Below are positions 5,215 through 47,935 of a DNA stretch of 64,000 bases, piece by piece. This stretch comes from Brachyspira intermedia PWS/A (GTDB taxonomy: Bacteria; Spirochaetota; Brachyspiria; Brachyspirales; Brachyspiraceae). The position numbers and the translations under genes are program-made. Numbering within the stretch: the first letter of the stretch is position 1; each line of letters begins with the position of its first letter. Location: positions 1 through 64,000 of the forward strand of contig NC_017243.1 in NCBI RefSeq assembly GCF_000223215.1. Reading direction: 5' to 3'. The notes beneath the pieces were generated by a model. That model was not told the origin of the DNA. It saw only the letters and a program-made list of their open reading frames with translations, and ran no database searches.

Positions 5215-5712
5215 AATTAATTACGTCTTCAAAGTATATGATTCTTATATTAGAGTATCGTAAATTTACAAAATTTATTAAATAAAAAATAGAGTCATAT
5301 TAATAATATAAATTAGAGTTATTAAAAGAATAAATACTGTTATTTTATATAGTTTTATGCCAATTTCAAATTAATACAACGCACGGTAAGCAGAATTTAT
5401 ATTATTAACTACACTATTATTTTTTAATTTTTATATAATCAAAAATACAACTATGCGTGCGGTAAGTTAATCAAAAAATAAATAAATCTTGGGCGGGTGC
5501 TATAAATTCTAATTAAGTAATAAAAAATTAAAAATTAAAATTGCAGATTGATGTTTAAAAGTATTGGGGGCGGGCATATGTAATTAAATTTTAAAATCTT
5601 ATTCAACTACCCTACCCTTTTATATTTAATTTAGCTTTGAAAAAAAAATCTCATAAAACTACTGATATATAATCATTGATTTTTAGACTATTTTAATATA
5701 ATATTAAATGCT
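5215..5712. repeat. Intergenic region with mosaic palindromic repeat, copy 2
   Basis: No gene is seen in this divergent intergenic region. It holds an A hairpin (CGCACGG 5380-5386; CGTGCG 5456-5461), a B box (TTGGGCGGGTGC 5489-5500) and a C palindrome (5565-5622, GGGGCGGG to CCCTACCCTTTTA). The module order is A-B-C-C'. The remaining AT-rich ends probably contain the two divergent promoters, which I could not place with confidence. Confidence 0.7.
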
Positions 5713-37249: not shown

Positions 37250-38038
37250 ATGAAAAAATTATTATTTATTTTATTTTTATTACTATTTATTATTTCTTGT
37301 AATTGTAAAAAAGAGGAAGTGGTAAAAATAGGATATATAGGCGAACTTGATATGAGTATATGGGAATATGTGTCTAATGAAATGAAAGAGCAGAATATTT
37401 TATTAGAATTGATACAGTTTTCAGACTATTCTATAATAAACAAAGCTTTAAATAGTGGTCATATAGATTTGAATCATTTTCAGCATTACGCTTATTTTGT
37501 TAATGCTACAAATAAAAATGATTATTATTTGAGTATTATAGATAAAACTTTTATAGCGGCTATGAATATGTATTCAGAAAATTTAACTAATTTATCTCAG
37601 TTAAAATTACATTCAAAGATAGCAGTACCAAAAGATGAAGTAAATTTATCAAGATCATTAAAAATATTGGAATCTATAGGATTATTAAGATTAACTAAGA
37701 AGAATAATGTTAATTACAATTTTACTACAAATGATGTAAGAGAAAATTATTTACAATTAGAGTTTGTAGCTGTAGAGGCTGATGATGTTTATTCTGTTAT
37801 GTCTTTTGTTGATGGGGCTTTTGTTAATCTCAATCTTAATTTTGATTTTAAAGATTCAAATATTTTATATTATGATGATCCTAGTAAATATGAATCAGAT
37901 ATGTATATTAATCTTATAGTGGCAAGATTGGAAGATGAGGATAATGGTGTTTATAAAAAAATAGCAGAAGCTTATAAAAAAAGAATAAAAGAGGTTGTTG
38001 AATCAGGAAAATTAAAGGGAATTATCATCAATTATTAA
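37250..38038 (+). CDS. blpE: NlpA/MetQ-family lipoprotein, blpE-like
   Basis: 262 residues with a long hydrophobic signal peptide ending FIISC (Cys17). NlpA features are KIGYIGELDMSIWEYVSNEM, SGHIDLNHFQHYAYFV, IAVPKDEVNLSRSLKILESI and a divergent late ligand loop (VEADDVYSVMSFVDGAFVN). It shares DEVNLSR with the blpF product, where blpA and blpG have DxSNxGRA, so E and F form one subgroup and G and A another. Different ligand preference is possible. Confidence 0.82.
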   Translation: MKKLLFILFLLLFIISCNCKKEEVVKIGYIGELDMSIWEYVSNEMKEQNILLELIQFSDYSIINKALNSGHIDLNHFQHYAYFVNATNKNDYYLSIIDKTFIAAMNMYSENLTNLSQLKLHSKIAVPKDEVNLSRSLKILESIGLLRLTKKNNVNYNFTTNDVRENYLQLEFVAVEADDVYSVMSFVDGAFVNLNLNFDFKDSNILYYDDPSKYESDMYINLIVARLEDEDNGVYKKIAEAYKKRIKEVVESGKLKGIIINY

Positions 38039-38047
38039 TAGTTTTTA

Positions 38048-38074
38048 TTGAAATTATTCAAAAAATAATATAAT
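38048..38074 (+). promoter_or_regulatory. Possible separate promoter for blpA
   Basis: TTGAAA (38048-38053), a 15-base spacer and TATAAT (38069-38074); a strong AAAGGAG ribosome site follows before the ATG at 38117. It could let blpA be expressed more than its paralogues. Confidence 0.5.
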
Positions 38075-38116
38075 CTAGATAAACTAATTTAATTAAAATT
38101 TTATAAAGGAGCGACA

Positions 38117-38932
38117 ATGAGAAAAATTTTATTATTGATATCATCAGCTATATTATCATTGATGATATTATCATGCGGAAATACTTCTTCTGGTGATCAA
38201 AAAATAGTTAAAGTTGGTTTTGCAGGAGAGTCTGATTATCAAATTTGGAATCCTATAGTAGAAAAATTAGCTGAGGAAGGAATAAAAGTAGAGTTAGTAT
38301 CTTTCTCTGATTATACTATACCTAATCAGGCTTTAAATGATGGAGAGATTGATTTGAACGCTTTCCAACACTATGCATACTTTAATGATGAAGTATCAAA
38401 TAAAGGATATGATTTAACTGCTATCGCTGATACTTATATATCTGCTATGAATATTTATTCTACTAATATTACAGATGTAAAACAATTAAAAAACGGCGAT
38501 AAAATAGCTATACCTAATGACCCTTCTAATGGTGGAAGAGCTTTAAAAGTTCTTCAGGCTGCTGGAATCATTAAAGTAAAACCTGAGGCAGGAGATACTC
38601 CTAGCGTAAGCGATATAATAGAAAATCCTTTAAATGTTGAAATAGTAGAAATGGATGCTGGTGCTATTTATGGTGTTTTACCTGATGTTGCTTGTGCTGT
38701 TATCAATGGAAACTATGCTATAGACTTCGGTTTGAATCCTGGTTCTGATTATATATTCAAAGATGACCCTTCTATTTACAGCGGAAAATCTTTTGTTAAT
38801 TTAATAGCTGCAAGAACTAAAGATAAAGATAATGAATTATACAAAAAAGTTGTAGCAACTTATCAATCTGAAATAGTAGAAAAAGTTTATAATGAGAATT
38901 TCTTAGGTTCTTATCTTCCTACTTGGAAATAA
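38117..38932 (+). CDS. blpA: NlpA/MetQ-family lipoprotein, BlpA/BmpB
   Basis: 271 residues. The signal peptide ends ILSC (Cys20). NlpA signatures are KVGFAGESDYQIWNPIVEKL, NDGEIDLNAFQHYAYFN, IAIPNDPSNGGRALKVLQAA, MDAGAIYGVLPDVACAVING and SFVNLIAARTKDKDNELY. It is the last and most canonical of the four paralogues, with the strongest ribosome site and its own terminator, matching the dominant 29.7-kDa Brachyspira lipoprotein BmpB. It is probably the main binding partner of MetNI. Confidence 0.87.
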   Translation: MRKILLLISSAILSLMILSCGNTSSGDQKIVKVGFAGESDYQIWNPIVEKLAEEGIKVELVSFSDYTIPNQALNDGEIDLNAFQHYAYFNDEVSNKGYDLTAIADTYISAMNIYSTNITDVKQLKNGDKIAIPNDPSNGGRALKVLQAAGIIKVKPEAGDTPSVSDIIENPLNVEIVEMDAGAIYGVLPDVACAVINGNYAIDFGLNPGSDYIFKDDPSIYSGKSFVNLIAARTKDKDNELYKKVVATYQSEIVEKVYNENFLGSYLPTWK

Positions 38933-39015: not shown

Positions 39016-39444
39016 TCAATCTAAATCTATATCATCATCTTCTTCACTTAATGAAGGCTCTAATATAGCATCTTTACCTGTGCTGATTATATCATTAACT
39101 AATTCATTAATATCTTCTTTATCAGATGAAAAATATTCTAATATCATAGCGAAATTCATTCCAGCTATTAATCTTATATTGAATTTATTTTTTTCTTTTT
39201 TTGAAAATATATTTCCTATATTAAAAGGAGTTCCGCCATATAAATCAGCCAATATTATAATATCTTTTGCATCTTCAATTTCATTAAGACAGCTTTGTAA
39301 TTTTCTAGAAGTTCCTTCAAATCCGTCTTCAGCAGCCATACATACAGTATGATATCCTGCAACTTCTCCTAATATCATTTTAGCGGATTCCATTATTTCA
39401 TGTGCAAAATTTCCATGACTCATAAGTATTAAACTAGGTTTCAT
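39016..39444 (-). CDS. PTS mannose-family EIIA component
   Basis: 142 residues of the EIIA-Man fold: the phosphorylatable His10 is in LMSHGNFAHEI, and ILADLYGGTPFNIG follows. It receives phosphate from HPr and passes it to EIIB. It is the last gene of the leftward operon. Its ATG directly abuts the stop codon of the serine hydrolase gene, with GGAGG inside that gene's end, so translation is coupled. The C-terminus is acidic (EEDDDIDLD). Confidence 0.88.
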   Translation of the reverse strand: MKPSLILMSHGNFAHEIMESAKMILGEVAGYHTVCMAAEDGFEGTSRKLQSCLNEIEDAKDIIILADLYGGTPFNIGNIFSKKEKNKFNIRLIAGMNFAMILEYFSSDKEDINELVNDIISTGKDAILEPSLSEEDDDIDLD

Positions 39445-40407
39445 TTATTCCTCCATAAATATTTTATTTAATTCTTCTCTTAATTCTAAATATGCATTAT
39501 TATTTCTGTTTGGGTGAATTCTGTTTGTGAGAATTATCATAGCTTCTTTAGAGTTTAAATTTATCAATATAGAAGTTCCTGTAAAACCGGTATGATATAA
39601 AGTATATTTTCCGTATCTCTTATCCCAGCCTAAAGTTCTTTCTCCGATATTAATGTCTATTAGTTTTTTTATTGATTTATGAGATAAGACTTTTTCATCA
39701 TCATTTAATATAGAGCGGGCAAAAATATTTAAATCTTCAAGTGTAGAAAATAATCCAGCACTTCCTATCTCTCCCAAAGCATGAGCTTTAGAGTCATGAG
39801 CTTCTGAGCAAATTATTCCTCTTTTATCTGTAATTTCAGTTGGAATGCAGTAGTCTTTATTAGAAGGGTAGTATGAAGTATTATTCATATTGGCTGAATT
39901 AAAAATATAATCTTTAAATGCTTTATCCAAATTGAGATTTGTAATATTTTCTATTATAAAGCCTAATATAATAAAGCCTATATCAGAGTATATTGTTTTA
40001 TGATAGTTTTCTTTATTTATAATAGTGTTTTCAAATATTTTATTTCTATCTATATTGGTTTTATCATCTAAATCTGCTTTAAGTCCGGAATTATGAAGCA
40101 GCAATTCTTCTATAGTGGTATTATTATCTTTGAAATTACTGCAGAATTTGACAGCTTTATCATCTAAATTTATTTTGCCCAAATCTAATAATTTAAGCAT
40201 CATTGAGGCAGTACCTATAACTTTTGTAAGAGAAGCCAAATCATAAATGCAATTATGATCAACTTTATTAGAATTATTAGTTCCGTATATACCTATATAA
40301 TTATTTTTAATATCATCATTTTTTATAAAACTATATGAGACATTATATATTATATTTTTTTCTAAAGCCTCATTTAACATAGATGATATAGTGTCAAATT
40401 TATTCAC
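39445..40407 (-). CDS. Class C beta-lactamase-like serine hydrolase
   Basis: 320 residues of the penicillin-binding/beta-lactamase fold. The catalytic Ser59-x-x-Lys62 is in DLASLTKVIG, the second motif is YSD (YSDIGFIILGFII) instead of YxN, and the third is HTG (YHTGFTGTS). No signal peptide is evident, so it is probably cytoplasmic. Next to murQ and a PTS it may act on peptidoglycan-derived sugar peptides (esterase/amidase), as reported for serine hydrolases in other murQ operons. Antibiotic hydrolysis is unlikely. The role is inferred from context. Confidence 0.75.
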   Translation of the reverse strand: MNKFDTISSMLNEALEKNIIYNVSYSFIKNDDIKNNYIGIYGTNNSNKVDHNCIYDLASLTKVIGTASMMLKLLDLGKINLDDKAVKFCSNFKDNNTTIEELLLHNSGLKADLDDKTNIDRNKIFENTIINKENYHKTIYSDIGFIILGFIIENITNLNLDKAFKDYIFNSANMNNTSYYPSNKDYCIPTEITDKRGIICSEAHDSKAHALGEIGSAGLFSTLEDLNIFARSILNDDEKVLSHKSIKKLIDINIGERTLGWDKRYGKYTLYHTGFTGTSILINLNSKEAMIILTNRIHPNRNNNAYLELREELNKIFMEE

Positions 40408-40438: not shown

Positions 40439-41347
40439 TTAAGCATTTTTAGCTTTTTCTATAGCTATTCTCACCATGTTATTAGATTCTTTTAAAAGTT
40501 TCTGAGCTTTATCTTTATCTATAGAAGCCTTATTCATTATTATTGAAACGGCAACAGATTTTCCTGATTCTTCAAATAATTTAGAAGACTTTTCTATATC
40601 AAGACCTGTTATTGAAGATATCATTCTTATAGCTCTAGTTTCCAACTTTTTATTTGTAGGAAGCACATTAACCATGTAGTTTCCATAAACCATTCCTGAT
40701 TTTATCATTACACCAGTTGAAATACTATTTACAACCATTTTAGCGGCAGTTCCTGATTTCATTCTAGTAGAACCGGATATTACTTCAGCACCCACTATAG
40801 GAGTAATAACTATATCTGCAGATTTCTCAACATTTTCATTTCTGTTTGATGATATCATCACAGTTAATGCTCCTACTTCTTTGGCATAATCCAATCCACC
40901 TAATACATAAGGAGTTCTTCCGCTTGCTGCTATTCCCACAACGCAATCTAAATTAGTAAGTTTGCAATTTACTAAATCTTCTTTTCCTAATTCTCTGGAA
41001 TCTTCAGCTCCTTCAACGGCTCTGTACATAGCTTCCTTTCCGCCTGCTATGAGTCCGAAAGCTCTTTCAGGTGAAACATTGTATGTAGGAGTAAGCTCTA
41101 CAGCATCTAAAGTACCCATTCTTCCAGATGAACCAGCACCTATATATATTAATCTCCCACCTTTTATATATCTTTTTGCTATTTCATCTATAGCTTTTGC
41201 AATATTTTCACTTTCTTTTCCTACTGCTTCAGCAACTTTAACATCTTCAGAATTTATTATTTTAACCATTTCTATAGTACTTAAAGCATCTATATTTTTA
41301 GAATTTTCATTTACAGATTCTGTTACAAGATTATCCAAATTTTCCAT
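40439..41347 (-). CDS. murQ: N-acetylmuramic acid 6-phosphate etherase
   Basis: A 302-residue SIS-domain lyase that cleaves MurNAc-6-phosphate into GlcNAc-6-phosphate and D-lactate. Signatures are YIGAGSSGRMGTLDAVELTP with the sugar-phosphate loop, IAGGKEAMYRAVEGAEDSRE carrying the catalytic Glu, GIAASGRTPYV and GSTRMKSGTAAKMVVNSIST. The length is normal. It is 31 bp upstream of the serine hydrolase gene and downstream of an RpiR regulator in a PTS operon, which points to MurNAc as the imported sugar. Confidence 0.95.
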   Translation of the reverse strand: MENLDNLVTESVNENSKNIDALSTIEMVKIINSEDVKVAEAVGKESENIAKAIDEIAKRYIKGGRLIYIGAGSSGRMGTLDAVELTPTYNVSPERAFGLIAGGKEAMYRAVEGAEDSRELGKEDLVNCKLTNLDCVVGIAASGRTPYVLGGLDYAKEVGALTVMISSNRNENVEKSADIVITPIVGAEVISGSTRMKSGTAAKMVVNSISTGVMIKSGMVYGNYMVNVLPTNKKLETRAIRMISSITGLDIEKSSKLFEESGKSVAVSIIMNKASIDKDKAQKLLKESNNMVRIAIEKAKNA

Positions 41348-41366: not shown

Positions 41367-42224
41367 TTATTCTTCATCATCTAATTTTAATTCTCTAGTT
41401 AGAATGCTTGTATTTATGAGATTATCTTTTATATTTTCAAAGTCTTTCTGTATAGCACCAAAGTATAAAAGATCGCTCACAATAAGAGATGAATATTTTG
41501 AAGTAATAGCACCCATTCTAGTAAGCTCTTCATTGTTAGGAACAGTGATCAAAACATCAGCCATTTTAGAAAGATTATTTGTCTTCTTCCTTGTTACGGC
41601 TATTATAGATGCTTTTTTTGCAGAAGCTATTTTCACAGGATAAATAACTTCATTAGTTCTGCCGCTATATGAAAAGGCTATAACTACATCTTCTTCTGTA
41701 AGATAATTAAAAAACTCAGCATTCAAATGTGCATCTTCATAGAAGAAAGCATTGAAATTTGCTCTTTTAAGTTTATGAAATAAATCATAAGCCGATAGAG
41801 ATGAAGCTCCTATACCAAGCATATATATATTTCTTGCATTTCTTATAAGTTTAAAAGCTTTCTCCAATGCATTTTTATCTAATTGATAGAAAAAATCTTC
41901 ATTAGATGATTTTATTAAGAGCATAATTTTATCGCATAATTCTTCTACATTATCATCAGCTGATATTATAGTATTGATATTGTATTTATTATCATCATCA
42001 CCATTTTTACTTGCTATAGATATTTTAAGTTCATCTAATCCCTTGAATCCAAGATCTTTAGCAAATCTCACCACAGAAGCAGATGAAACCCCGCAGTTTT
42101 TTGAAATATCCAAAGCTGTTAATTTAATAACTTCTTTAGGATTTGACAAAATATAATTAGATATTTTCTTGTATGCTTTACTAAAATCTTCGTATTTATC
42201 TCTTATTATTAAATATGCATTCAT
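41367..42224 (-). CDS. RpiR-family transcriptional regulator
   Basis: 285 residues. The N-terminal HTH_6 domain (about 1-75) includes LTALDISKNCGVSSASVVRF; the SIS sugar-phosphate-sensing domain (about 115-250) includes IYMLGIGASSLSAYDLFHKL and AFSYSGRTNEVIYPV. It lies within the operon it presumably controls. Two identical palindromes TGTAAT-N3-ATTACA upstream of the first gene resemble the published operator of the RpiR-family protein HexR. The effector is probably MurNAc-6-phosphate or a related hexosamine phosphate. Confidence 0.88.
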   Translation of the reverse strand: MNAYLIIRDKYEDFSKAYKKISNYILSNPKEVIKLTALDISKNCGVSSASVVRFAKDLGFKGLDELKISIASKNGDDDNKYNINTIISADDNVEELCDKIMLLIKSSNEDFFYQLDKNALEKAFKLIRNARNIYMLGIGASSLSAYDLFHKLKRANFNAFFYEDAHLNAEFFNYLTEEDVVIAFSYSGRTNEVIYPVKIASAKKASIIAVTRKKTNNLSKMADVLITVPNNEELTRMGAITSKYSSLIVSDLLYFGAIQKDFENIKDNLINTSILTRELKLDDEE

Positions 42225-42239
42225 TTTATTTTACCACTC

Positions 42240-42716
42240 TTATTTTAAATATGCTTCTATAGATTGATCGGATTCATTTGGAAGCATTTGAGCAGTTACA
42301 TTTATACCATCAGCTATCATACTTTTTATTAAAGCTATATCATCTTCTGTGAGATTTACAGATTTTTTTATTTGTACAGAGCCTTCTTTTTTGGCTACAT
42401 TACCAATATTAACAGTTTTTATAGGTACGCCGTTTTTTATTATTTCATTCATATCCTCTATATTTTTTGTTATTAGGAATATTTTATCTTCGTCATATAC
42501 TCCTTCTTTAAATTTTTCTGCAGCTTTTGCTTTTGATAATATTGATAATTTAACTCCGGCAGGTTTTGATATTTTTAAAGCGGCTATTATAGTTTCATCT
42601 TTTACAGCCTGATCATTAACTACAGCTATTCTTGTAGCTCCTACAGTATTTGTCCATACCATAGCAACTTGTCCATGTATCAATCTTTCATCTACTCTAG
42701 CATTTACTATACTCAT
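42240..42716 (-). CDS. PTS mannose-family EIIB component
   Basis: 158 residues. The phosphorylation His14 is in ARVDERLIHGQVAMVWT, the hallmark of EIIB of the mannose/fructose/sorbose family, and the rest of the domain is intact (IFLITKNIEDM, IKTVNIGNV). It transfers phosphate from EIIA to the incoming sugar. It lies between EIID and the RpiR regulator gene. Confidence 0.93.
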   Translation of the reverse strand: MSIVNARVDERLIHGQVAMVWTNTVGATRIAVVNDQAVKDETIIAALKISKPAGVKLSILSKAKAAEKFKEGVYDEDKIFLITKNIEDMNEIIKNGVPIKTVNIGNVAKKEGSVQIKKSVNLTEDDIALIKSMIADGINVTAQMLPNESDQSIEAYLK

Positions 42717-42747: not shown

Positions 42748-43575
42748 TTATTTACTGAATAAACCAATAACAAAATCAAGCATTCCTTGAGAATTACCCA
42801 ATACCATTCCTATTGCTATTATTACAACAATCAAATGAGTAGAATTAAATTTCTTCTTACCCAAAAGCCAATAAGAGAATAATACTACAAGAAGCGGTAT
42901 TAAAGAAGGCATTATCTTATCAAGCATTGACTGTATATCCAAAGAAACTTCACCTAAAGTGAATGTAAGATTAAGTTTATAAGTTATAACAGATGCTATT
43001 AATCCGCCTACAACTGTTAATCCTAAAATTGCAGCTCCTTCTGTTATAGGTGCTATAGAATTGGCAAAACCTACAGCTAATTTTTTACTTTGATTATAAC
43101 CTATATAAGTAAATTTATATCTTAAAAAAAGTACAGCTAAACATGCAAATACAGGAACTATTAATCCTATAGCATTACCGTCTAAAGCTATATAAGAAGC
43201 AATGGAGAATACTATTGCTCTGTATATAGCAAGGAATAAAGTATCTCCAACACCCGCGAAAGGCCCCATTAATCCTGTTTTTAAACTAGATACAGCCTCT
43301 TCAGATTTTTCTCCTAAACTCTCTTCCAAAGCCATATCAGCACCTATGATAAGGTGAGACATTGCAGGAGTAGTATTGAAATAACCTAATTGCATTTTTA
43401 AAGCTTTTTTCATTCCTTCAGGATTATTTTTATATATTCTTTTTAAGGCAGGCATTATTACCCAAGCATATCCTAATCCTTGCATTTTCTCATAATTCCA
43501 ACCCCATTGAAATCCGAATAAATTTCTAACATATACTTTATTAATATCACTTTTAGTTAATTTATTATTTTCCAT
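42748..43575 (-). CDS. PTS mannose-family EIID component
   Basis: 275 residues. The cytoplasmic N-terminal half has RNLFGFQWGWNYEKMQGLGY and TTPAMSHLIIGADMALEES; GLMGPFAGVGDTLF is the conserved EIID motif. The C-terminal half carries membrane helices. With EIIC it forms the membrane channel of the permease. Confidence 0.93.
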   Translation of the reverse strand: MENNKLTKSDINKVYVRNLFGFQWGWNYEKMQGLGYAWVIMPALKRIYKNNPEGMKKALKMQLGYFNTTPAMSHLIIGADMALEESLGEKSEEAVSSLKTGLMGPFAGVGDTLFLAIYRAIVFSIASYIALDGNAIGLIVPVFACLAVLFLRYKFTYIGYNQSKKLAVGFANSIAPITEGAAILGLTVVGGLIASVITYKLNLTFTLGEVSLDIQSMLDKIMPSLIPLLVVLFSYWLLGKKKFNSTHLIVVIIAIGMVLGNSQGMLDFVIGLFSK

Positions 43576-43606: not shown

Positions 43607-44410
43607 TTATCCGTCTATTTCTATTTCATCATCATCAGAAGCCGCTCCAGCAGTTTCTTTTATAGCTCCTTTTTCCATTGTTCTGTGATAATTAAGAGCA
43701 GCAAAAGCAAATCCTAATAAAGCCACAGCCAATACACTCATGTTTCCTCCGCTGAATGCTATTGCTACAAAACCTATTATGAAATAATAGAAATATTTTT
43801 TAAGAGGCAAATATCTCATAAGTATCGCAATACCCATTGCAGGAAGTAAAGCTCCGGCAGCCTTTAATCCGTTCATAAACCAGCCCGGTATGAAATTATT
43901 TATAGTTTGTATTACTGTTTCTCCGAAAAATAATCCTATAAATACAGGTATTACTCTTGATAATACCCATGGTAAAATACCCAATACATTACACATCTCA
44001 ACGCCTCTGTAATTGCCTTCATCAGCGTATCTATCTGCTTTATGTTGAAATATTAAGTTAGTCATTCTTCCTAAAATATCCAACTGAGTCAATAAAAGTC
44101 CTATAGGAACCGCTATAGCTATTCCATATTCAGCACCTTTTTGCGAAATTATAGCATAAGAAGTGCCTATTATAGCTCCGGATAAATAATCAGGAACAGT
44201 GGCTCCTCCATAAGTTGCTACACCTAATGTGGCTAATTGCAAAGTAGCACCTATAAATAGACCAGACTTTAAATCCCCCAATAAAAAACCTGTGAAAGCA
44301 GCAGCAAATAATGGTGTATATACGCCTATTTGTATAGAAATTTGATCTAATACGCCTATGACAGTATATATACATAGTATTAGAATTACTATAGCAGATA
44401 ATTCTTGCAT
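43607..44410 (-). CDS. PTS mannose-family EIIC component
   Basis: 267 residues, polytopic, with GFLLGDLKSGLFIGATLQLA and GGATVPDYLSGAIIGTSYAI of the EIIC-Man family. It ends in an acidic cytoplasmic tail (SDDDEIEIDG). It is the first gene of the leftward operon EIIC-EIID-EIIB-RpiR-murQ-hydrolase-EIIA, with two candidate RpiR operators upstream. Confidence 0.93.
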   Translation of the reverse strand: MQELSAIVILILCIYTVIGVLDQISIQIGVYTPLFAAAFTGFLLGDLKSGLFIGATLQLATLGVATYGGATVPDYLSGAIIGTSYAIISQKGAEYGIAIAVPIGLLLTQLDILGRMTNLIFQHKADRYADEGNYRGVEMCNVLGILPWVLSRVIPVFIGLFFGETVIQTINNFIPGWFMNGLKAAGALLPAMGIAILMRYLPLKKYFYYFIIGFVAIAFSGGNMSVLAVALLGFAFAALNYHRTMEKGAIKETAGAASDDDEIEIDG

Positions 44411-44434
44411 AAAACATACTCCTATAAATATTCT

Positions 44435-44449
44435 TGTAATTATATTACA
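44435..44449. promoter_or_regulatory. Candidate RpiR-family operator, proximal
   Basis: TGTAATTATATTACA, a TGTAAT-N3-ATTACA palindrome 25 bp upstream of the EIIC start. Confidence 0.6.
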
Positions 44450-44475
44450 TTTATTAACATTTTATCAAATTAAAA

Positions 44476-44490
44476 TGTAATTTCATTACA
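44476..44490. promoter_or_regulatory. Candidate RpiR-family operator, distal
   Basis: TGTAATTTCATTACA, the core of an 11-5-11 palindrome at 44470-44496. Its centre is 41 bp (about four helical turns) from the proximal site. Confidence 0.6.
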
Positions 44491-44652
44491 TTTTAATAGT
44501 ATATATAAAAAAATATCTATTGCAAGTTATTTATTCAAAAAAACTAGAAATTATCATAATTTTTTATGAAAAATCAGATGAATTTTAATATAATAAAGTA
44601 AATTTTATAGTATGAAATTATATATAGAATTATATTGTTAATTGGTATTGAA

Positions 44653-45077
44653 CGCACAATAAATAAAACTAAAATATAGATTAATTTATAATTCAAATTT
44701 TATTATATTCTTAATTTTGTTCACCATGCGTTAAATATATTTTTAACCTAATAACCGTTTGGGTGGGTGCTATAATTTCTAAATTAAACAATAGAAAAAA
44801 GAAAAATTAAAATTGCAAGATAAATTAAAAAGCCTATAGGGTGGGCAAATGTAATTAAATTTTAAAACTTAATTTACATACCCCGCCCTTTAAAATTTAT
44901 TGCTATACTTTAAATATAAACATCAATTATATTTAAAGCCTCATTAGAAATAAAGCACCCGCCCAAGCATTTTTTAAATTTAAAGTCTACTCAACGCACG
45001 GTTAGAAAAACTTAAATAATATAATTAAATTATAATTAAAAAATGAATATATATTTTTGACTTTGCTCTCCGTGCGG
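44653..45077. repeat. Mosaic palindromic repeat, copy 8 (complete)
   Basis: A symmetric 425-bp element: A hairpin (CGCAC 44653 / CCATGCG 44723-44729), B (TTTGGGTGGGTGC 44758-44770), C (AGGGTGGGC 44838-44846), C' (CCCCGCCCTTTA 44881-44892), B' (GCACCCGCCCAAG 44955-44967), A' hairpin (CGCACGG 44995-45001 / CCGTGCGG 45070-45077). No gene is present in the 44411-45104 gap. Confidence 0.8.
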
Positions 45078-45104
45078 TATTTAAAATTCAAAGTAAAAAA
45101 TAAA

Positions 45105-46487
45105 TTATATATTACTCTGCATACTTTTTAAATGCTTTATTTCTATAGTTACCATTATAATAGTAACTATTAAAGCAGCTCCGTCAGCAATAGGACCGGC
45201 ATACATTACGCCATCTATACCGAATATTCTAGGAAGTATTATTATAAGAGGAAGAAGAAATAAAGTCTGCCTAGTTACAGCAAGAAATGCCCCCTTAAAT
45301 GCTTTACCTAAAGAACTAAAGAATGTTCCAGTTACAGGCTGAGCAGCATTGATTATCATAAGCATCATAAATATTCGCATGTACTTTTCAGAGAATTGAA
45401 AATAAAGCTCGCTTCCGTCCCCGAATATAGAAACAATTTGTCTAGGGAAGAATTGAAATAATAAAAATGCAATGAATGTTATGATGCTTGTTATTATGAT
45501 AGTATATTTATATGTTTCAATAACTCTTCCGTAATTTTTTGCCCCATAATTAAAACCTATTATAGGCTGACTTCCTTGAGAAGCTCCTATTACAAAAGAC
45601 ATTACTAGCATATTAACTTTTGCTACTATTCCGGAAACTGCTAAAGGTATATTACCTCCATATATAGAGTTGCTTCCATAGTAGCTAAGTACATTATTCA
45701 TAACAATTTGAAGAATCATCATAGATAAGTTGCTGAATCCTGCAGAAGCACCTAATGCAAATATTTTTAATATTGATTTGAATTCAGGTATAAAGCTTTG
45801 TTTTTCAAATTGAATATTTTTGAATTTAAATATGTATGCGAAAGCTATAAAGAAAGATACATACTGTCCTATAACTGTGGCAAGTGCAGCACCGGCAATA
45901 CCCATTTTAAATACGAATATAAATAAAGGATCTAAAATAGTATTAACAATAGCACCGCTTAAAACTGAAGCCATAGAATATTTGGGACTACCGTCTGCCC
46001 TTATAGTATAACTCATAACCATAGAAAATATATAAGCTGTAAATCCAAAAGAAGTTATATCGGTGTATATTACTGCATAATCTAAAACTTCTTTTGTTGA
46101 TCCGAATGCTATCATTAATTTTGTATTAAATATCTTTACAACTATTGATAATATAATACCAAATACAAAAGATAAAGTAATGCTGTTTCCTATGATAATA
46201 GATGCATGTTTATTTTCGCCTTTTCCTAATAGTATGCTGTAAAGCGAAGCTCCTCCAACACCTAGAAACAATGATATAAATATGCATATTATAGTGAGAG
46301 GGAAGGCCACATTAGTTGCGGCATTCCCATTAATTCCCACACCCTGTCCTATAAATATTTGATCTACTATATTATAAAGAGAGCCCACAAGCATTGATAT
46401 AATACTTGGAGTTCCATATTTAAATAGAAGCCTATGTATCTTTTCATAATACAAAGGGTTTGATGAAACTGACATACATAAATCCAA
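45105..46487 (-). CDS. MATE-family efflux transporter
   Basis: Up to 460 residues; the start may be the Met at 46475 (MSVSSNPLYY). Twelve membrane helices and MATE signatures: FKYGTPSIISMLVGSLYNIV, DQIFIGQGVGINGNAATNVA, and the duplicated second half with QGSQPIIGFNYGAKNYGRV. These are Na+- or H+-driven drug/metabolite antiporters. It is highly similar along its whole length to the next leftward gene, a tandem duplication. Confidence 0.9.
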   Translation of the reverse strand: MDLCMSVSSNPLYYEKIHRLLFKYGTPSIISMLVGSLYNIVDQIFIGQGVGINGNAATNVAFPLTIICIFISLFLGVGGASLYSILLGKGENKHASIIIGNSITLSFVFGIILSIVVKIFNTKLMIAFGSTKEVLDYAVIYTDITSFGFTAYIFSMVMSYTIRADGSPKYSMASVLSGAIVNTILDPLFIFVFKMGIAGAALATVIGQYVSFFIAFAYIFKFKNIQFEKQSFIPEFKSILKIFALGASAGFSNLSMMILQIVMNNVLSYYGSNSIYGGNIPLAVSGIVAKVNMLVMSFVIGASQGSQPIIGFNYGAKNYGRVIETYKYTIIITSIITFIAFLLFQFFPRQIVSIFGDGSELYFQFSEKYMRIFMMLMIINAAQPVTGTFFSSLGKAFKGAFLAVTRQTLFLLPLIIILPRIFGIDGVMYAGPIADGAALIVTIIMVTIEIKHLKSMQSNI

Positions 46488-46552
46488 TAAACATATTAAA
46501 TAAATTCATTATTTATAAAGTATATTTATTTTTCTTACATTTGCAACTTTTT

Positions 46553-47935
46553 TCAATTACTTTTATTCTTTTCAAGTATTTTTAATTTTTTTATTTCTTT
46601 GCTTACCAATATAACAGTAACTATCAAAGCCGCTCCGTCAGCAACAGGTCCGGCATACATTACTCCGTCTATGCCTAATATTCTAGGAAGTATTATTATA
46701 AGAGGAAGTAAAAATATGATTTGTCTTGTCATAGATATAAATGCCCCTTTGAATGCTTTTCCTAAAGAAGTGAAGAATGTACCAGTTACAGGCTGAATAC
46801 CATTTATCACCATTAATGCCATATATATTCTCATGTATTCTTCAGCAAAATGAAAATACAATTCGCTTCCGTCCCCAAATATTCCTACAATCTGTCTTGG
46901 GAATAATTGAAATAAAAGAAAAGCTGTAAATGCCATTATAGTTGTTATTGTTATAGTAAGTTTATATGTCTTTATAACTCTGTCATAATTTTGAGCTCCA
47001 TAATTAAAACCTATTATAGGCTGGCTTCCTTGAGATGTACCTATTATAAAAGCCATTACAAGCATATTGACTTTTGATATGATGCCTGCTACAGCCAAAG
47101 GAATATTTCCTCCGTATATGGAATTAGTACCATAATAGCTAAGTACATTATTCATAGTGATTTGAACGGCCATCATTGCTAATTGATTAAAACCTGATGA
47201 TGAACCTAAAGAAAATATTTTCAATATGTTTTTAGGATCAACTTTAAAATTATCTCTTTCAAAAGTTATATGCTTGAATCTGAATAAATATCTGAAAACT
47301 ATAGCAAATGAAATGAACTGTCCTATTATTGTTGCAAGTGCTGCACCTGACATACCCATATCAAATTTAAATATAAAAATAGGATCTAATATAGTATTCA
47401 CAATGGCACCGCTAAGAACTGACATCATAGAATATTTAGGGCTTCCGTCTGCTCTTATTATATGGCTCATCATCGTAGAAAATATAAATGGTATAAATCC
47501 AAATGCTGTTATATTTGTATATTCAATTGCATAAGGCAAAACCTCTTTTGTAGAGCCAAACATTGTCATGAAATTTTTATTAAAAAGTTTTACTATCACA
47601 GTAAATATAAAACCTAATACAAGTGCAGATACTACGGCATTTCCTATAAATGTAGCAGCTCTTTTATTATTTCCCTGTCCTAACAATATGCTGTACATTG
47701 AAGCACTGCCGAATCCATGAAACAATGCTATAGACATACAAATTATTGTAAGAGGAAAAGCAACATTTGTAGCAGCATTGCCATTAATACCTATTCCCTG
47801 ACCTATAAATATTTGATCTACTATATTGTATAAAGAACCTACAAGCATTGATATGATACTTGGAGTAGCGTATTTAAATAGAAGTTTATATGGTTTTTCA
47901 TAGTATAAAGGATTAGAAACTACATCATTATTCAT
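46553..47935 (-). CDS. MATE-family efflux transporter, tandem paralogue
   Basis: 460 residues, aligning along nearly its whole length with the neighbouring MATE protein (shared NPLYYEK, ATPSIISMLVGSLYNIVDQI and SQGSQPIIGFNYGAQNYDRV). Differences cluster in helices 3-4, where HGFGSASMYSILLGQG replaces LGVGGASLYSILLGKG, which could shift substrate preference. It lies 65 bp upstream of its paralogue and may be co-transcribed with it. Confidence 0.9.
   Translation of the reverse strand: MNNDVVSNPLYYEKPYKLLFKYATPSIISMLVGSLYNIVDQIFIGQGIGINGNAATNVAFPLTIICMSIALFHGFGSASMYSILLGQGNNKRAATFIGNAVVSALVLGFIFTVIVKLFNKNFMTMFGSTKEVLPYAIEYTNITAFGFIPFIFSTMMSHIIRADGSPKYSMMSVLSGAIVNTILDPIFIFKFDMGMSGAALATIIGQFISFAIVFRYLFRFKHITFERDNFKVDPKNILKIFSLGSSSGFNQLAMMAVQITMNNVLSYYGTNSIYGGNIPLAVAGIISKVNMLVMAFIIGTSQGSQPIIGFNYGAQNYDRVIKTYKLTITITTIMAFTAFLLFQLFPRQIVGIFGDGSELYFHFAEEYMRIYMALMVINGIQPVTGTFFTSLGKAFKGAFISMTRQIIFLLPLIIILPRILGIDGVMYAGPVADGAALIVTVILVSKEIKKLKILEKNKSN

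Follow-up and report, generated by a model that had tools for sequence, protein, structure and literature searches.

The closest described systems are those of the RpiR-family regulators HexR, RccR and MurR. HexR of Vibrio and its relatives governs many central carbon metabolism genes; in the accessible part of the source the Vibrio motif is given as TGTAATTAAATTACA, and repression is the presumed outcome when HexR binds downstream of a promoter (PMC11906056). RccR of Pseudomonas is likewise a wide regulator. It recognizes a 15-bp pseudo-palindrome (TGTAGT/ACTACA), two copies of which lie upstream of aceE according to the available portion of its description (PMC5489143), and it uses 28-bp sites as well. 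E. coli MurR controls the MurQ-based catabolism of N-acetylmuramic acid (MurNAc; murQ-murP-yfeW operon). In the available text on this system, a MurR tetramer was proposed as a bridge between two neighboring sites that are separated by 17 bp and together span 47 bp, and binding of the effector, N-acetylmuramate-6-phosphate, lowers DNA affinity (PMC12713135). Searches of the available literature collection for Brachyspira together with RpiR, or with N-acetylmuramic and phosphotransferase, returned nothing relevant.

We analyzed a 64,000-nucleotide stretch of Brachyspira intermedia PWS/A (referred to as the window) which carries a minus-strand operon of seven genes. The first three encode the EIIC (43607-44410; Pfam EII-Sor, 1.1e-71), EIID (42748-43575; EIID-AGA, 4.7e-84) and EIIB (42240-42716; PTSIIB_sorb, 5.8e-48) components of a mannose-family phosphotransferase system (PTS). 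They are followed by an RpiR-family regulator (41367-42224; HTH_6, 1.3e-18 and SIS, 1.1e-22), the N-acetylmuramic acid 6-phosphate etherase MurQ (40439-41347; TIGR00274, 359.6 bits, passing the equivalog cut-off of 302), a serine hydrolase with a beta-lactamase fold (39445-40407; Pfam Beta-lactamase, 1.1e-30) and EIIA (39016-39444; EIIA-man, 5.7e-18). The serine hydrolase is weakly PBP4B/YfeW-like, with 79 bits against NF002968 (cut-off 385). An AGGAG ribosome-binding site (44419-44423, minus strand), read from the sequence and conserved in the upstream alignment described below, lies 8 nt before the EIIC start codon. Elsewhere in the window, two adjacent and similar NlpA-type lipoprotein genes are found at 37250-38932, with a third relative beside them at the corresponding locus of a second Brachyspira genome (G007), and a tandem pair of closely similar multidrug-exporter-like genes (MATE-type, named by eye) is located at 45105-47935.

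Enterococcus faecalis has an operon of identical gene content and order (IIC-IID-IIB-RpiR-murQ-serine hydrolase-IIA; V2I04_RS11935-RS11905), with protein identities to Brachyspira ranging from 38 to 73% (IIC 73%, IID 70%, IIB 61%, MurQ 53%, RpiR 44%). The E. coli system shares MurQ-based MurNAc catabolism, and the position of yfeW after murP is comparable to that of the Brachyspira serine hydrolase. However, murR and murQ are arranged divergently in E. coli whereas the RpiR gene lies inside the operon in Brachyspira, and the two regulators are only 28.5% identical. Further, E. coli MurP is glucose-type while the Brachyspira operon encodes a mannose-family PTS.

An earlier reading of the window, made from the sequence only, had assigned the operon regulator to the RpiR family, described there as the family of HexR. 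The RpiR assignment held, with an N-terminal HTH_6 domain at 67.1 bits (cut-off 28.3) and a C-terminal SIS domain at 80.7 bits (cut-off 25), but the HexR label needs refinement, as the protein scored 127 bits against the HexR model NF008451 (cut-off 296). Scores were also below the cut-offs of E. coli MurR (NF012026, 105.4 against 408 bits) and PRK11557 (155 against 355 bits). The SIS domain aligns with the solved E. coli MurR SIS domains (7en5/7en6), and the gene directly adjoins murQ (41367-42224 beside 40439-41347), the gene position of a MurR-type regulator. In the E. coli murR-murQ stretch, the operator motif described below had no match even at 3 mismatches. Because of this and of the three sub-threshold scores, we refer to the protein only as the RpiR-family regulator of the PTS/murQ operon, even though its mode of action would probably resemble theirs.

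Upstream of EIIC, the palindrome TGTAAT-N3-ATTACA occurs twice in exact form. The predicted distal operator O1 (TGTAATTTCATTACA as plus strand) lies at 44476-44490 and the predicted proximal operator O2 (TGTAATTATATTACA as plus strand) at 44435-44449. Their centres (44483 and 44442) are 41 bp apart, which corresponds to 3.9 turns at 10.5 bp per turn and thus places both sites on nearly one face of the helix. O1 additionally forms the core of a 29-bp perfect palindrome with 13-bp arms and a 3-bp centre. Both copies, their common helix face and the lack of any other exact copy in the window had been pointed out in the sequence-only reading; all three statements are borne out, the last one now extending to the entire 3.3-Mb genome. 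The likeness to the HexR operator proposed there is also real, since the Vibrio motif, as given in the accessible part of the source, fits TGTAAT-N3-ATTACA exactly (PMC11906056). The RccR site differs by one symmetric base, and the operon palindromes match the published sites of both regulators (TGTART-type pseudo-palindrome).

Scans at different stringency showed where the signal resides. At up to two mismatches, 19 matches were found in the window compared with 16.8 expected, so that the exact form alone is informative. Genome-wide, 31 matches at up to one mismatch were no more than the 31 in a reversed-letter control, and the signal therefore consists of the exact pair and not of a general excess. 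The exact motif gave 2 forward matches in the genome and 1 in the control; across 26 Brachyspira genomes there were 11 matches against 26 in the control, with 6 of the 11 belonging to three pairs of the kind described here. In Markov simulations the exact motif reached a density of 0 to 0.67 per Mb, and three simulated runs of 6 Mb contained no two sites within 60 bp of each other. A genome scan for spread of the motif to unrelated genes had been suggested earlier as a way to refute the operator proposal; within the B. intermedia genome, the exact motif turned out to be confined to the operon promoter.

To characterize the upstream footprint, the corresponding regions of three genomes that are close relatives at this locus were aligned (G000, the genome of the window itself, G007 and G011). 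All 24 columns of the operator arms are invariant and the 41-bp spacing is kept, O1 being identical in the three genomes and O2 varying only in its centre. In the 26-bp spacer between the operators (44450-44475), by comparison, only 12 of 26 columns are invariant and 8-13 of 26 positions differ pairwise, without any indel (arms versus spacer, one-sided Fisher test treating columns as independent, P = 1e-5). Pairwise divergence at four-fold degenerate sites of the operon amounts to 22-29%, indicating that there was enough time for divergence. As the spacer has diverged while its length remained constant, the spacing itself seems to be selected.

Besides the two operators and the ribosome-binding site, the invariant blocks upstream of EIIC comprise TTGCAA-16-TATACT, whose hexamers and spacing are unchanged in all three genomes. 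This predicted operon promoter (44498-44525, minus strand; TTGCAA at 44525-44520, TATACT at 44503-44498; 9 of 12 consensus positions) lies upstream of both operators. The usual gap between a -10 box and the transcription start is 6-8 nt. Based on this gap and the conserved -10 box, transcription is predicted to start near 44491, with O1 at about +1 to +15 and O2 at about +42 to +56 of the transcript. Both operators would then lie inside the 5' leader, downstream of the predicted promoter. The earlier placement of the sites just upstream of EIIC is therefore correct in position but incomplete.

The motif pair and the operon were found together. Out of 392 phylum genomes, three (G000, G007 and G011) contain two exact motifs 15-45 bp apart. 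Among the 26 Brachyspira genomes, the regulator (95-100% identity) and MurQ (97-100% identity) are likewise found in these three only, i.e. pair and RpiR/MurQ operon occur in exactly the same genomes. An HTH_6 search returned one match each in 9 of the 26 genomes; in the three genomes carrying the pair this match is the operon regulator, which is the sole HTH_6 (RpiR-type) protein found in its own genome. The other exact Brachyspira sites (G016, G017 with two on separate contigs, G018 and G020) are single, are located in or beside other genes, and none of them adjoins a PTS/murQ operon. In addition, exact TGTAAT-N3-ATTACA sites occur as pairs with a gap of 15-45 bp on 11 viral contigs from IMG/VR; several of these contigs have a second such pair at a distance of about 1.6 kb from the first.

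Sites with one mismatch were examined for a wider regulon, which was rejected. The B. intermedia genome holds 29 such sites; a simple ORF caller places 24 of them inside ORFs, and the other 5 are intergenic. With neighbours judged from their opening residues, none of the 29 lies beside a recognized amino-sugar gene and none could be tied to Entner-Doudoroff or central carbon genes. Whereas HexR governs many central carbon genes, the exact motif points to one target promoter for the Brachyspira regulator, the only exact sites being those next to the PTS/murQ operon. Of the 30 phylum loci with RpiR relatives that were scanned (25 outside Brachyspira and 5 within the genus), only those of G002 (L017, 1411-1425) and G020 (L018, 1408-1422) have a one-mismatch site, the remaining loci showing no site or scattered two-mismatch sites. 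G002 and G020 carry a different RpiR gene (ca. 27% identical), and the site follows directly after a TATACT -10 box (by eye), which is the same predicted design as that of the PTS/murQ operon.

Taken together, it is quite likely that the twin palindromes are operators of the RpiR-family repressor encoded in the same operon, which would be subject to autogenous repression relieved by a sugar phosphate. What can be read from sequence is the exact and conserved sites, their fixed spacing, the conserved promoter upstream, the strict co-occurrence with the regulator and the uniqueness of the pair in the genome. We link the operators to the operon regulator based on their co-occurrence in the same three genomes, the invariant arms, the presence of a single HTH_6 protein and the RpiR-type half-site. 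As long as substrate is lacking, O1 and O2, which lie about four helical turns apart, would be occupied by dimers of RpiR or by a single tetramer that bridges them, and RNA polymerase would be stopped during initiation or early in elongation. The regulator would thereby limit its own operon, resulting in autogenous and operon-dedicated control. A cell-wall sugar entering through the mannose-family PTS would be phosphorylated, most likely to the MurQ substrate MurNAc-6-phosphate or a near product, and binding of this sugar phosphate to the SIS domain would release the DNA and induce the operon. That MurNAc-6-phosphate is the effector seems probable from gene content.

Two observations outside the phylum, where the footprint comparison covered E. 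faecalis and E. coli, count against this interpretation: the E. coli murR-murQ stretch is without the motif, and the E. faecalis operon of the same gene order lacks the 41-bp pair, its upstream region containing a single two-mismatch site (TGTAATTTCATTTAA). This may mean that the arrangement with two sites is particular to Brachyspira. Two adjacent sites are a feature shared with E. coli MurR, but those in Brachyspira are 26 bp apart and span 56 bp compared with the 17 bp and 47 bp given in the available text for MurR (PMC12713135).

Alternative interpretations differ in how much of this model they would change. The same regulator and sites could act on another promoter, TTGATA-18-TATAAT (44468-44439), which comes closer to the consensus than any other candidate in the region (11 of 12). 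O2 would then overlap the -10 box and O1 would lie just upstream of the -35 box. The promoter would be flanked by the operator pair, and O1 might serve as an activator site. Such an arrangement would resemble E. coli MurR, whose sites are described in the available text as overlapping -35 and -10 (PMC12713135). Nevertheless, G007 differs at the -35 hexamer and G011 at both, the changed O2 centre in the latter abolishing TATAAT, while TTGCAA and TATACT are conserved in all three genomes. We consequently rejected TTGATA-18-TATAAT as the operon promoter and consider this variant unlikely.

Replacing the regulator or the mode of action altogether is harder to reconcile with the data. Short AT-rich palindromes suit many regulator families, yet the motif matches a published RpiR-family half-site and the pair is present exactly where the RpiR gene is, making a binder from another family very improbable. 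With a start near 44491 both palindromes would be transcribed and could pair with themselves or with each other, acting as 5'-leader hairpins in attenuation, translation or mRNA stability. The leader, however, folds no better than shuffled sequences (z = -0.64; 48 of 200 shuffles as good), no terminator-like site was found in 44380-45110, the invariant arms offer no compensatory changes, and the fixed length of a diverged spacer suits protein-DNA contact. The RNA hairpin was rejected for its lack of stability beyond shuffles, and we assign this possibility an equally small chance. Finally, occurrence by chance in AT-rich DNA, which would fit the near-expected number of two-mismatch matches, has close to no probability: the exact pair is unique in the genome, did not appear in the simulations and is conserved in three genomes.

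Autogenous repression by the operon regulator, the interpretation favored here, would make the locus a twin-operator sugar switch, a well-supported case of an ordinary and known kind of regulation that is new for Brachyspira. It provides a concrete candidate operator-regulator pair for a spirochaete genus, and a two-site layout with a spacing unlike that of E. coli MurR can help in studying DNA recognition by RpiR tetramers. For the few gut Brachyspira concerned, the operon may represent an inducible route to use cell-wall sugar shed by neighboring bacteria.

The distribution of the operon also bears on its history. Genes upstream of it differ among the three genomes, and on the upstream side conserved DNA extends only some tens of bp beyond the promoter (ending at 44566 and 44543 of the window). 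Between G000 and G011, four-fold sites differ by 29% in the operon, 57% in pcrA and 12% in pgk (the pgk figure leaves out two comparisons at locus L099, and ungapped counts on the downstream side were omitted as indel-distorted), with identities of 71% for pcrA, 95% for RpiR, 97% for MurQ and 96% for pgk. It is likely that the operon, together with its control region, was recently transferred between species, with the baseline formed by two genes that disagree. More tentatively, and with some doubt on our side, operon, promoter and twin operators may travel between Brachyspira species as a self-regulated cassette in which an RpiR tetramer spans two sites separated by four helical turns. With both sites downstream of the promoter, repression would then come about through looping or through obstruction of the first 60 bp of the transcript, and not through occupation of -35 and -10 as proposed for E. 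coli MurR.

The upstream DNA further contains a dispersed short repeat, AACGCAYGGTRAACNAA, at 44716-44732 (minus strand), with additional copies in the window at 5378, 26958 and 50093 (4 matches at up to two mismatches, 0.06 expected). Exact copies number 11 in the B. intermedia genome, 10 in G007 and 1 in G011, with 0 in the reversed control. The repeat is located upstream of the operon in both G000 and G007 despite their differing upstream genes.
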